From the NCBI RefSeq assembly GCF_029589435.1, contig NZ_JARRAG010000002.1, positions 2,666,001 to 2,730,000 on the forward strand: 64,000 nucleotides of DNA, written 5' to 3'. A program made the translations under genes and the position numbers. Shown here piece after piece: positions 53,452 through 60,892 of the stretch. Every line of letters starts with the position of its first letter. The first letter of the stretch is position 1. Below the pieces are notes generated by a model. It ran no database searches and was not told the origin of the DNA. It saw nothing but the letters and a program-made list of their open reading frames with translations. This DNA comes from Paludisphaera mucosa (GTDB taxonomy: Bacteria; Planctomycetota; Planctomycetia; Isosphaerales; Isosphaeraceae).

Positions 53452-53524
53452 GCCCTCCTAGCTCAATTGGTAGAGCAGCTGACTCTTAATCAGCGGGTTG
53501 TAGGTTCGAGTCCTACGGGGGGCA
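53452..53524 (+). tRNA. tRNA-Lys (anticodon CTT)
   Basis: 73 nt cloverleaf. Acceptor GCCCTCC pairs with GGGGGGC (one G-T pair), D arm GCTC-AATTGGTA-GAGC, anticodon stem GCTGA / TCAGC with loop CTCTTAA (CTT at 53485-53487), T arm GTAGG-TTCGAGT-CCTAC, discriminator A; CCA is not encoded. The 3' end is the presumed attachment site of the adjacent integrase. Confidence 0.95.
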
Positions 53525-54921
53525 TTCGCGACATCGTCCGCATCCGGCCGACGGGGGCCGTCAAACCCCGTCTTTTCTCGGGCGAAACCCACTTCGCCCG
53601 ACTTCCTATCAATGACCGTCGGTCCGTCAGTCTCCGACGGTTGCCGCCACAGTCCGTCCCCTACGATGGGCAAATGATGGGCAAAGACTTCGCTTATGCG
53701 TCCGCATTCCGGCCCGTGTTTCTCGGCGTCTGACACGGCCGAGCCTTCACCTACCGATGCGAGCTGGTGGGCAATGCCATCGGTTCCGGTTGCGGCCTTC
53801 ACCGACGGGGCGCTTTGCGGTGTCTCCAAGGGTTGTAAAGAGGGGAGCGACAGGGCGGCTCGCTCGACGTCGACGGCCCGGGGTCGAGTGTAGCGGCCGG
53901 TCAGTTCGAGGGTGCTATGTCTCATGAGACGCTGGACGACCCGCGGGCTGATTCCTGCGGCGTCGGCGTTGGTGGCGAGTTGGCAACGAAGAGAGTGGAA
54001 GTCGTAGACGAGCCCGGCGGCATCGCGGTAGGGAATGCCGGCGCGAGCAAGATCCGTCCGTAGCATCGCCGCCCCCCGATCGTCGTTGAGTCGGAAGATC
54101 GGCTCTCCCCTGGGGAGGTTGACGACGAAGCCTCGGAGGTCCTCGGCGAGGTCGGCCGAAATCGGCATCGTCGCCGGGTCGCCGTTCTTCGTGTATCCGG
54201 CCGCTACGGTCACGGTCGGCGGGCTCGATCGCCAGTCGAATGACGCGGCCGTGATACTCTGAATTTCGCCGTACCGGAGTCCGGTGGCGACGGCCAGTCG
54301 ATAGCAGAGGGCTCGGCCGGGCCCCGTCGTCTGCCGCCAGACTGGGCCGTAGTGAGTGGTCTCGATGAGCTTTCGCAGGTCGTCGAGGCCGAGGGTCCGC
54401 CGATCGTGTCGGCGGTCCTCCTTGGCGTTGTAGCCAGTCACGCTCGCCAGCGGGTCGGACGCCAACCGGCCTGATTTCCACGCCCACTTCGAGAACGCCC
54501 GTACGGACGTACGATGGCTGTTGACCGTCCCCAAAGACAATCCCTCGTCCCGGAGAGTCTTCAACGCGTCCTGGATGCTATCGACCGACAGGTCGGATAA
54601 CCTCGCGGCCCCGGCCAGGACGAAGACTTTCCGAGCCTGACTCGCCGTCAGTGCGATGTGCTTGGGTGTCGATCCCTTCGCTGAAAGGTGGGCTTTGTAG
54701 GCGTCGAGATGCTCCTCGATCGGCCGCCCTTGGTGCTCACGACGGACGAGGTCTCGGGGATCGACCAACCCGCCCTTGATCTTCGCGGCTTCGGACTCCG
54801 CGGCGCGGGCCAGGTCCTCGGTCGCCCTTCGATCCGTGCATCCCTTCCGTTCGCGGCTCACGCCGTCGGCGTCGACGAATCGGTAGTACCAGACGCGGCC
54901 GCGCTTTCGTAGACTCGCCAT
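53458..54921 (-). CDS. int: Tyrosine-type site-specific recombinase (island integrase)
   Basis: 487 residues; ATG at 54921 with AGGAGA upstream. An arm-binding N-terminus (LRKRGRVWYYRFVDADG) and a SAM-like core-binding domain (about 68-160) precede the catalytic domain with R216 (GLRYGEI), K245, H309-x2-R312 (FHSLRCQLAT), H335 (RLMRHST) and nucleophile Y344 (TGRYTRP). A 140-residue tail follows and the frame runs antisense into the tRNA-Lys gene, ending at its acceptor stem; the last residues (RRTRTYNPLIKSQLLYQLS) are a reading of the tRNA. Integration into the tRNA 3' end is inferred. Confidence 0.93.
   Translation of the reverse strand: MASLRKRGRVWYYRFVDADGVSRERKGCTDRRATEDLARAAESEAAKIKGGLVDPRDLVRREHQGRPIEEHLDAYKAHLSAKGSTPKHIALTASQARKVFVLAGAARLSDLSVDSIQDALKTLRDEGLSLGTVNSHRTSVRAFSKWAWKSGRLASDPLASVTGYNAKEDRRHDRRTLGLDDLRKLIETTHYGPVWRQTTGPGRALCYRLAVATGLRYGEIQSITAASFDWRSSPPTVTVAAGYTKNGDPATMPISADLAEDLRGFVVNLPRGEPIFRLNDDRGAAMLRTDLARAGIPYRDAAGLVYDFHSLRCQLATNADAAGISPRVVQRLMRHSTLELTGRYTRPRAVDVERAALSLPSLQPLETPQSAPSVKAATGTDGIAHQLASVGEGSAVSDAEKHGPECGRISEVFAHHLPIVGDGLWRQPSETDGPTVIDRKSGEVGFAREKTGFDGPRRPDADDVANAPRRTRTYNPLIKSQLLYQLS
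53500..53524 (+). other. Presumed attL core (3' part of tRNA-Lys)
   Basis: T arm and acceptor 3' strand of the tRNA, directly against the integrase gene. The exact core cannot be set because no second copy (attR) is found in the window. Confidence 0.5.
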
Positions 54922-55041
54922 CGGGTTCGTCTCCTGCTCAACTCAGGGTCGAATCAAGGGGGCGGGGTCGTCGCAAGCGGCCCCGTCTCCGCCCCTCACA
55001 GTATCGACGGGGCTCGTTGGTTGCAATCTAGACGATCTCTC

Positions 55042-59672: not shown

Positions 59673-59908
59673 GAGCCACCTCCTTGCCCATCAGTCTCGC
59701 GGCGGAAGTCTTGTGAGGCGTGCTCGATGAAGTGGTCGATCCCAGAGGCGGACCATCGCCGCAGCGCGCCGAGCTTGAACCCGCGCGGAATGATTCCGTC
59801 GTCGGCCAGCCTGTAGACGGAGCGTAGGGAACAGCCGAGACGGCGCGCGACTTCGCGGCCATCGAGAAGGACGTCGGACGAATCGGACTCTTGGCTTTGA
59901 GGAGGCAT
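59669..59908 (-). CDS. AlpA/excisionase-like HTH protein 1
   Basis: 79 residues from ATG at 59908 (GGAGAAACAC upstream). HTH: VLLDGREVARRLGCSLRSVYRLADDGIIPRGFKLGALRRW, typical of AlpA/excisionase. It is first in a tightly overlapping run of HTH1, HTH2 and DUF3987, followed by the primase. Upstream lies a 190-bp operator-like region. Having two paralogous small HTH proteins could divide the excisionase and activator roles. Confidence 0.8.
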   Translation of the reverse strand: MPPQSQESDSSDVLLDGREVARRLGCSLRSVYRLADDGIIPRGFKLGALRRWSASGIDHFIEHASQDFRRETDGQGGGS

Positions 59909-60097
59909 GTGTTTCTCCGAAACGAGATTCGGGGCGATCGTTCGCCCGTGCTCGACTCGGAGTGTCACCGACGGAACAGAAATCTGATTTATTCCAGCGA
60001 TTTATTCCGGCGTTGTGCATCGCGTCGTCAGTATCTGACGGGGATTGCAGATCATGAATTCCGGTGCCGGAATAATGATCCGCTCTTGACGTGGATT
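59909..60097 (-). promoter_or_regulatory. Control region of the island replication operon
   Basis: GC drops here. It contains GATTTATTCCAGC and GATTTATTCCGGC as a tandem pair (59986-60012), an inverted copy of the core (GCCGGAATAA, 60066-60075), and a perfect palindrome CGTCAG-TAT-CTGACG (60026-60040) between them. This looks like a regulator-binding array for the HTH operon. Promoter hexamers are not clear. Confidence 0.5.
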
Positions 60098-60892
60098 TCA
60101 GGCGTGCTTTTTTCCGGCGCGTTTCCGGCGGCGGTCTATGGCCTTTCGGACGTCATTCACGGTGATGTCGAAGTCGACGGCCAATCCCCCGTAAGTCGAG
60201 TAGCGACCGGTCCTCCACGCATCGAAGATTCGTTTGTCCATGTTAGGGTCGGTATCAGCGGGCCTGCCTCTGCGAGGGGGACCCGTCACGGTCGCTTCCT
60301 GACGTGGCTTTGGAGACGGCGCGGGGGGCGGGGGCTCGGCAAGGATGCTGAAATCAAACTCAAACGGCGGTAGGCCGTCGATCAGGGCGATCAGTCCCGC
60401 CAACCGCGCGGGGGTGGAGATGTATCGGGCGTAGTCTACATCCGACGAATGCTTGAACTTTATGGCATCGACGATGCCGTGGATCGTCCACAGGTCGGTA
60501 GACGATTCCGGCATTCCGACCACGCGAAGACGGCCGTCGAGTTCGTGAAGGCCGCACCCCATGACCCGCATCAGCCCGTCGCTATAGTGGAGGAAAGCCC
60601 GGGTGCGACTCCAAACCTCGGTCGCCAACGCGTGGACCGAAATCCCGTCGGGTGGTGACACGCCGTCGGTCGAGATCAGGTCGTGGAATCGCGTCGCCGA
60701 GTAGATCAGCCATGCCATTTCAGCCCGGAGCGCGGCCAGATAGAATCTCGCGTCGATGGGGAACCGGGGCCCGCCGCCCGGCCACGCCGGGGGGAGCGGC
60801 CTGGAGACGAACCGCGTCATCAGAGTGGGACGCAGCACGATCGGCGACTTGCAGGGGTGGGCGTCGTCGCCGTCTCGGGTCGGATCGGACAT
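60098..60892 (-). CDS. Hypothetical protein with C-terminal HTH-like segment
   Basis: 264 residues. The central part is helical and unfamiliar (FYLAALRAEMAWLIYSATRFHDL, TEVWSRTRAFLHYSDGLMRVMG). The C-terminal 55 residues, RRGRPADTDPNMDKRIFDAW then GRYSTYGGLAVDFDITVNDVRKAIDRRRKR, read as a resolvase/Hin-type HTH after an RGRP AT-hook-like motif. It may be the island's DNA-binding regulator acting on the neighbouring operator array. AGGTGAT precedes the start. Function unknown. Confidence 0.6.
   Translation of the reverse strand: MSDPTRDGDDAHPCKSPIVLRPTLMTRFVSRPLPPAWPGGGPRFPIDARFYLAALRAEMAWLIYSATRFHDLISTDGVSPPDGISVHALATEVWSRTRAFLHYSDGLMRVMGCGLHELDGRLRVVGMPESSTDLWTIHGIVDAIKFKHSSDVDYARYISTPARLAGLIALIDGLPPFEFDFSILAEPPPPAPSPKPRQEATVTGPPRRGRPADTDPNMDKRIFDAWRTGRYSTYGGLAVDFDITVNDVRKAIDRRRKRAGKKHA

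Follow-up and report, generated by a model that had tools for sequence, protein, structure and literature searches.

A tRNA-Lys-integrated element of Paludisphaera mucosa with its attachment site inside the integrase reading frame

In Myxococcus phage Mx8 (and in Mx9), the phage attachment site (attP) is located within the coding sequence of the integrase gene (int), and integration creates a new 3′ end of int and alters the behaviour of the integrase (PMC6070905). There are also archaeal integrases known as “suicidal”, in which the attachment (att) site is inside the int gene and the gene is partitioned on integration; a review calls them exclusive to archaea and considers that the split enzyme might be inactive (PMC8371274). 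Among phage satellites, the PICMI of the Vibrionaceae have int (PF00589), AlpA (PF05930 or PF12728) and a DUF3987/DUF5906 primase, with the fis site as a hallmark, an average length of 6.7 kb, no capsid-remodelling genes and a defence function (PMC10803314). The criteria for PICI include phage-dependent induction (PMC6092414), along with a specific attachment site, specific packaging into phage-like particles, a conserved organisation of the replication origin and convergent phage-interference genes. The subject of the present analysis is an integrative element of 16.6 kb at a tRNA-Lys gene of the planctomycete Paludisphaera mucosa, in which the core of the att site lies in the integrase open reading frame (ORF), candidate arm sites are found on both sides of the core, and a conserved module is present at the far end of the element in the matching frame. 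The element begins in a window of 64,000 nucleotides (the whole stretch of DNA that was analysed, G000:C2:2666001-2730000) of a host genome of 8.2 Mb. G000 denotes this source genome, whereas the other G and L codes denote the genomes and loci of relatives that were compared.

The integrase reading frame and the attachment site

The element is bounded by 101-bp direct repeats of the 3′ part of tRNA-Lys. The second copy is 16,628 bp from the first and identical to it at 98 of 101 positions (E = 3e-46), so that the pair is far above chance expectation. The right end lies 6.2 kb outside the window. An earlier, sequence-only reading had assigned 53452..60892 (7.4 kb) to the element, which is too short, as the element extends over 16.6 kb to window-equivalent 70204; the right-hand repeat (attR), which that reading had proposed to look for to the right of 64 kb, is present there. 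The features of the two ends are:

53452..53524, + strand: tRNA-Lys (CTT), the target gene, the 3′ part of which is the att core (ARAGORN)
53476..53576, + strand: attL, 101-bp direct repeat (repeat comparison)
53458..54921, − strand: tyrosine integrase, 487 aa in the integrated form (Pfam PF00589, Phage_integrase, 6.2e-13, above cut-off; XerC-like alignment)
53667..53684, − strand: candidate P-arm, tandem repeat TTGCCCATCATTTGCCCA inside int, matched by TTGCCCACTATTTGCCCA
window-equivalent 70031-70048 (L006:18032-18049, outside the window): TTGCCCACTATTTGCCCA, 55 nt past attR inside the element
window-equivalent 70104-70204 (G000:C2:2736104-2736204): attR

The integrase ORF (53458-54921) adjoins tRNA-Lys(CTT), as had been read from the sequence, but overlaps the tRNA rather than abutting it: it passes through attL and reads the tRNA antisense, and its last ~39 residues derive from there. 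The catalytic motifs (TGLR, HSLR and the H..Y region) are at residues 213-344, ~100 residues ahead of the att edge at residue 448. In a pattern check of nine integrases, HxLR was found upstream of att in 9/9, TGxR in 6/9 and the H..Y region in 7/9, where misses are either failures of the strict pattern or real changes. As the catalytic motifs are upstream of the att edge, the chromosomal form of the integrase is probably still a recombinase. At attR, the int register runs on into the far end of the element and closes with a module like DLAAVVAAWPELPEAIRAGILAMVRA. Given an att site inside int and an in-frame tail at the far end, integration should exchange the C-terminus of the integrase, as in phage Mx8, here across a planctomycete-wide family.

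At E ≤ 1e-10, 20 of the 45 genomes compared within the order have a relative of the DUF3987 protein of the element, and the DNA surrounding most of the better matches was examined as 40 stretches. Seven loci from four genera (G000 included) have matches to all of AlpA, DUF3987, primase and int, and att pairs were found in five of six of these (G015 left out, G000 included); the conserved synteny near tRNA genes that the sequence-only reading had suggested looking for is borne out by this alpA-DUF3987-primase-int block. Among 13 int-bearing loci tested, 11 have a second att copy, at a spacing of about 6 to 35 kb, and none was found in G030 (contig edge) and G015. The targets of the 11 according to ARAGORN are tRNA-Lys, Leu (2), Phe, Gln, Cys, Met, Ser and three tRNA-like unnamed; three loci added later are at tRNA-Glu and tRNA-Ser (two examples).

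In nine of the first 11 elements int reaches att, and all nine frames lead to the conserved module. Counting the three later elements, 12 of the 14 that are bounded by att repeats have an int that extends into att, and in all 12 it is in frame with the tail, at tRNAs for Lys, Leu, Phe, Cys, Met, Ser and Glu and at two unnamed. This result is independent of the crossover position in six (G000, G031, G041, G039, G029c8 and G008c1), i.e., five with ungapped repeats and G031, where both registers agree. The other six (G001, G002, G011, G014b, G008c2 and G029) have a gap in the repeat and are in frame only if the crossover is on its anticodon side; in G029, where the diverged edge of the repeat has a gap of one base, the crossover must fall immediately inside that gap. 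The integrase of G008c1 has an internal in-frame stop.

Nine tails were used to build a model of 29 columns, which at E ≤ 0.01 picks out 91 positions in 32 of the 45 genomes of the order, nine of these 32 genomes having supplied the model, and at E ≤ 1e-4 matches 48 of 294 genomes of the phylum, including G000. The tail was not found in plasmid or phage records. For 81 distinct ungapped tails from 79 loci, the divergence per site at codon positions 1, 2 and 3 is 0.39, 0.28 and 0.60, respectively. A tRNA T-loop motif is present within 300 nt upstream of 60 of these 81 tails (39 antisense, 21 sense), whereas among 2052 windows drawn at random from these loci 60 have one, and the tail is mostly 107-230 nt past the motif. 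Stops between the motif and the tail occur in the tail frame in 3 of the 60, and in the other frames in 51 and 46. The motif is absent upstream of 21 tails, one of which, L106, looks like a chance match. There are three more free integrase tails in G000 (G000:C2:348474, 2489959 and 2431268); the first of these adjoins partial type III mod/res matches, which suggests remnants of an older element.

On both sides of the att core there is a repeat, mostly in tandem with a period of 11-12 bp, which differs between elements but is matched within one (e.g. TTGCCCACCATTTGCCCAC in G031 and TGCTACCGAAAACGCTACCG in G002). The best two-sided match exceeds all 40 shuffles in 11 of the 14 elements; G001, G008c2 and G008c1 fail this test. 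Arm-like repeats are also present in G006 and G006b, where int ends before att. Repeats flanking the core on both sides are the layout expected of integrase arm sites. We infer that the repeats may be such sites, in which case the whole attP would be inside the ORF.

The tRNA-Lys site is polymorphic across the genus, as seen in six genomes compared by means of the left-flank gene as marker. Downstream of the same tRNA-Lys, G000 has the element studied here, G030 has a different element with an int that is 70% identical, and G031 and G028 have a remnant of the 3′ end of int; no int match was found in G029 and G032 within the ~1.3-1.4 kb examined. The right-flank gene was dropped as a marker of the empty site, as it is not adjacent to tRNA-Lys in the relatives.

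Gene content and related elements

From attL, the order of genes is int, the 306-aa protein, TerS-like (TerS, small terminase), CHC2/Toprim primase, DUF3987, two AlpA-like, the 264-aa protein, the 166-aa ORF, the UvrD-type helicase, Mod and Res. The features beyond int are:

55042..55962, − strand: 306-aa protein (U306), no Pfam family; homologues in L112, L147 and L153, near TerS-like domains
56173..56391, − strand: 72-aa TerS-like DNA-binding domain (phrog_51, 9.8e-5)
56427..57656, − strand: CHC2 zinc finger/Toprim primase, start uncertain, ORF to 57731 (CHC2 1.7e-16, Toprim_2 1.4e-5)
57739..59463, − strand: DUF3987 helicase/primase-type replication protein, start uncertain (PF13148 2.1e-56; phrog_2373 5.5e-32)
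59460..59672, − strand: AlpA/excisionase-like HTH_17 protein (Pfam, PHROG)
59669..59968, − strand: second AlpA/excisionase-like HTH_17 protein (Pfam, PHROG)
60098..60892, − strand: 264-aa protein, no family; partial tblastn matches in related elements
61084..61584, + strand (opposite to the others): 166-aa ORF, no family in Pfam, PADLOC or PHROG
61730..63808, − strand: UvrD/Rep-type helicase, cargo, 4 bp from mod and on the same strand (PF00580 6.7e-20; PADLOC GajB/UvrD-type matches)
63813..64000 and on to window-equivalent 66593, − strand: type III DNA methyltransferase mod, 3′ end in the window (PADLOC MTase_III, 1444 bits)
window-equivalent 66597-69695: res, after mod (Pfam ResIII 6.6e-8 and RE_endonuc 7.3e-6; PADLOC REase_III only 4.8e-5)

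The integrase, both AlpA-like genes, DUF3987 and the CHC2/Toprim primase, all named in the sequence-only reading, are confirmed by Pfam, and both AlpA-like proteins match HTH_17 (PF12728) above the cut-off (7.6e-8 and 1.2e-8). That reading ended its gene list at 60892, and the 166-aa ORF, the UvrD-type helicase, Mod and Res lie beyond. It was right in placing the genes from int to the 264-aa gene on one strand (all minus), and several spacings or overlaps are short, but its tight overlaps do not extend to the intergenic stretches of ~80-210 bp among the int, 306-aa and TerS-like genes, or to the ~130 bp before the 264-aa gene. No capsid, portal or large terminase (TerL) family was recognised in the proteins of the element, those of its left part having been compared with Pfam and PHROGs, UvrD and Res with Pfam, and Mod with PADLOC alone. 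Nor was a relaxase or type IV secretion system domain recognised (Pfam; Mod by PADLOC only), so that the first reading, in which such genes were lacking, agrees with the scans through to attR. The type III restriction-modification (R-M) genes and the UvrD-type helicase are cargo genes, and the family scans named no PICI interference gene. The N-terminus of the helicase has a very weak RelE/HigB-like match (PF05015, 0.21). ARAGORN also called a tRNA-Pro at 59170-59244, antisense within the conserved DUF3987 gene, which is probably a false positive.

Genes for R-M were confirmed in at least four of the 12 elements (G000, G031, G029c8 and G008c2). The type III Mod and Res of the G031 element are 44-50% identical to the G000 proteins (tblastn); G029c8 (L109:12984-18142, G029:C8, at tRNA-Glu) has HsdM and DarT (1.7e-57) with a Macro-domain partner; and G008c2 has HsdM and an HsdR-type protein. 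Elsewhere, U306 and a TerS-like domain recur near each other (L147:8039-11235, L153:7274-10337 and L112:1154-5995), and in L147 and L153 their neighbours include a Terminase_2 match and, by eye, a gene resembling DUF5681. R-M gene sets are present in L147 (Eco57I-type) and in L112 (type I). A 35.4-kb element of G029:C14 (L047/L070) encodes a sigma-factor-like protein as well as a very large one, and may have a tail-like module, which shows weak tape-measure similarity (E = 0.032). At window positions 35765-35856 (− strand), outside the element, there is a tRNA-like ARAGORN call, for which the program gave an undetermined anticodon.

Proposed mechanism and alternative explanations

In the excised circle, the ORF would run from int via the P arm, the tRNA core and the P′ arm into the conserved C-terminal module of ~29 aa. 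Integration at the tRNA would sever this module, which would remain at the element’s far end, and the integrated integrase would gain a new tail read from the tRNA and the flanking DNA, with its catalytic motifs untouched. The circle form, with the conserved tail, would be set for integration, whereas the chromosomal form, lacking it, would stay quiet or excise only with an AlpA partner. On this view the tail would promote integration, and the integrated state would be more stable once the tail is lost, until AlpA comes into play. The primase and DUF3987 would replicate the circle, the type III R-M and UvrD helicase cargo would repay the host through phage defence, and the most likely route of transfer would be packaging by a helper phage. 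We lean slightly towards this view of the element, as a 16.6-kb integrative mobile element of a large family with a state-dependent integrase and likely transfer as a satellite. The chances are even for the wider proposal of a phylum-wide class of planctomycete integrases, in which the ORF encloses the whole attP, each integration rewrites the C-terminus and so stores the state in the protein, and this switch drives defence-carrying, satellite-like elements.

Several observations weigh against the C-terminal switch. The circle and the forms of the integrase are deduced from genome anatomy. In two of the 14 elements (G006 and G006b), int stops ahead of att, by 48 and 90 bp. Six loci have a stretch of int immediately upstream of a tail that is on its strand, and only one of the six is in frame; L069, L082, L101 and L120 have int fragments out of frame with the tail, and in L127:11267-12798 (G005:C31) a long open int is followed by a T-loop and then by a tail out of register. 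Such neighbours may be stacked or decayed elements, the int and tail of which do not belong together, but they lend the switch no support; L127 is possibly two stacked elements. A single frame stays open in L112 (G030:C115, which is also the place of L083) from a partial integrase through the antisense tRNA-Lys into the tail, although Pfam saw no integrase domain in this 252-aa partial ORF. Out-of-frame neighbours, together with arm-like repeats that overlap the linker of the ORF and can account for protein motifs such as AHHLPT, are what would be expected if the tail were a DNA-level feature (an attachment arm), or a separate peptide in frame by chance. This is very improbable, given that third codon positions diverge most (0.60 vs 0.28 at position 2), that between tRNA and tail no stop interrupts the joining frame in 57/60 whereas the other two are stopped in 51/60 and 46/60, and that the tail is in frame with the element’s own int in 12/12.

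Whether the element lives as a satellite is a separate question; from its sequence such a lifestyle is plausible, and its odds are roughly even. The minimal TerS-like gene of the sequence-only reading stands as a weak match, to Terminase_2 below the curated cut-off (0.0046, 104-aa ORF) and to phrog_51 (9.8e-5, 72-aa form). In the structure model of the 72-aa protein (pLDDT 78.6), the chain ends after four helices, and its top three PDB matches in a fold search are small terminases, with E-values of at least 0.19 (best BFVD match 0.035). This resembles, weakly, an N-terminal TerS DNA-binding domain. The model of U306 was unusable (pLDDT 56.6). In G031, a sibling element from the genus, the slot between primase and int is occupied by a full TerS (phrog_4044, 3.2e-31). 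TerS (3.3e-11) and TerL (2e-29) are both present in an 11.5-kb element with perfect 60-bp repeats (L126:705-12309, G008:C1); five ORFs of the latter were scanned and none matched a capsid, and its integrase has an internal in-frame stop. The host has a complete-looking prophage at about G000:C1:1390900-1413000 (L145, L146), with TerS, TerL, portal, major head protein, integrase, an AlpA-like gene and weak tail-protein matches, which from its gene set is a candidate helper; its TerS is 46% identical to that of the G031 sibling over 114 residues. The prophage TerL was found by phrog_2, and both phrog_2 matches in G000 are outside the element, whereas PF03237 (large terminase) has no match in six genomes of the genus, G000 included; phrog_2 also matches 11 of 14 control genomes, so that its weak matches mean little. 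A further contig, G000:C9 (L144, 15,502 bp), has a ParA-like gene (by eye), a phrog_1156 primase (3e-126) and a phrog_4044 TerS (11376-11813), with no terminal overlap that would indicate circularity, and is possibly a phage-plasmid or an extrachromosomal satellite.

Against satellite transfer, the 72-aa protein is without the part of TerS for oligomerisation and motor binding. The TerS families phrog_4044 and PF03592 each occur in 6 of the 45 genomes, and among these matches only that of G031 falls within one of the 12 elements. Matches between element and prophage by blastn are at chance level (best E = 0.016, 22-24 bp), and a packaging site shared by the two was dropped as a candidate for this reason. 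No relative of DUF3987 or U306 was found in two pattern-based scans of viral contigs, and DUF3987 has five weak matches only in phage records. Furthermore, Int, AlpA and DUF3987 are also found in elements not known as satellites.

An ordinary integrative island (an integrative mobile element or defence island), which moves by another route, e.g. co-transfer with a conjugative element, natural transformation or generalised transduction, and has no specific helper phage, is the strongest competitor, with a likelihood somewhat below even. On this explanation the att site in int belongs to the integrase and is uninformative on lifestyle. It fits the lack of any recognised packaging gene beyond the truncated TerS domain, the six tails of G028 in a genome without DUF3987 at E ≤ 1e-10, the viral-contig scans and the R-M cargo, which is typical of islands in general; it fits less well with TerS in the same slot of a sibling, TerS and TerL in another element, the PICMI-type gene set, and the Pfam-scanned proteins of the element, which have no relaxase or type IV secretion system domain. 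There is also a faint chance that the element is a prophage in decay, with its structural genes lost, given that integrase, AlpA, primase, DUF3987 and the TerS fragment are all phage-type and that some relatives have TerL (the structural genes of the siblings had no systematic search). However, the ORFs of G000 are intact, the cargo is one closely spaced gene run, and the alpA-DUF3987-primase-int block recurs in seven loci of four genera, with att pairs in 5/6.

If the preferred view of a state-dependent integrase is correct, the family would be a widespread bacterial counterpart of the archaeal suicidal integrases and would generalise the Mx8/Mx9 precedent, with the state of recombination written into the recombinase’s own C-terminus. 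The tail signature (past a T-loop motif, in an open frame) would provide a simple marker for the far end of an element, which is usually hard to find, and the family would be one of tRNA-integrated planctomycete elements with satellite traits, some with restriction systems.

Comparison with known systems

The gene set of the PICMI is present in full, i.e., PF00589 (6.2e-13), PF12728 twice and PF13148 (2.1e-56), but the target is tRNA-Lys and not fis. The element also differs from PICMI in its size (16.6 kb vs an average of 6.7 kb), and in having a separate CHC2 primase and a TerS-like gene, with no helper known here. With PICI it shares a specific attachment site (the 101-bp att repeats in tRNA-Lys), and with PICI and P4-like elements site-specific integration, AlpA and a primase/replication module. 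P4 itself has AlpA and such a module, and P4-like elements reportedly carry antiviral hotspots. In this comparison of genes, the difference is that TerS is truncated here, and no psu/sid or Ppi-type gene turned up in the family scans. Full PICI membership was rejected as unproven, as the attachment site is present but the TerS-like gene is truncated and no DNA is shared with the prophage above chance level. What stands of the PICI-like satellite proposed in the sequence-only reading is a bounded, site-specific element with the PICMI set minus fis and a sibling TerS.

In the integration-dependent immunity of mycobacteriophages (BPs-type), the att site is within a coding gene, and integration changes the C-terminus of the protein. 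There, the gene is that of the repressor, whereas here it is that of the integrase itself. The suicidal integrases of archaea likewise have att inside the integrase gene, but the G000 catalytic motifs (213-344) stay on the large fragment (att edge 448), so that integration does not separate the catalytic domain, and the host is bacterial.

An att site in int is already known from Mx8/Mx9 and archaea; no description of a planctomycete tRNA-integrated family with a conserved far-end tail was found among the matches listed (open-licence PubMed Central papers). The closest likeness is to Mx8/Mx9, in that the att core is inside the int ORF and a new 3′ end is formed on integration. Unlike Mx8, a complete phage for which two attB sites lie next to each other, the present system is a family of small elements that use numerous tRNA genes, keep a conserved C-terminal module at their far end and have paired arm-like repeats in the ORF.

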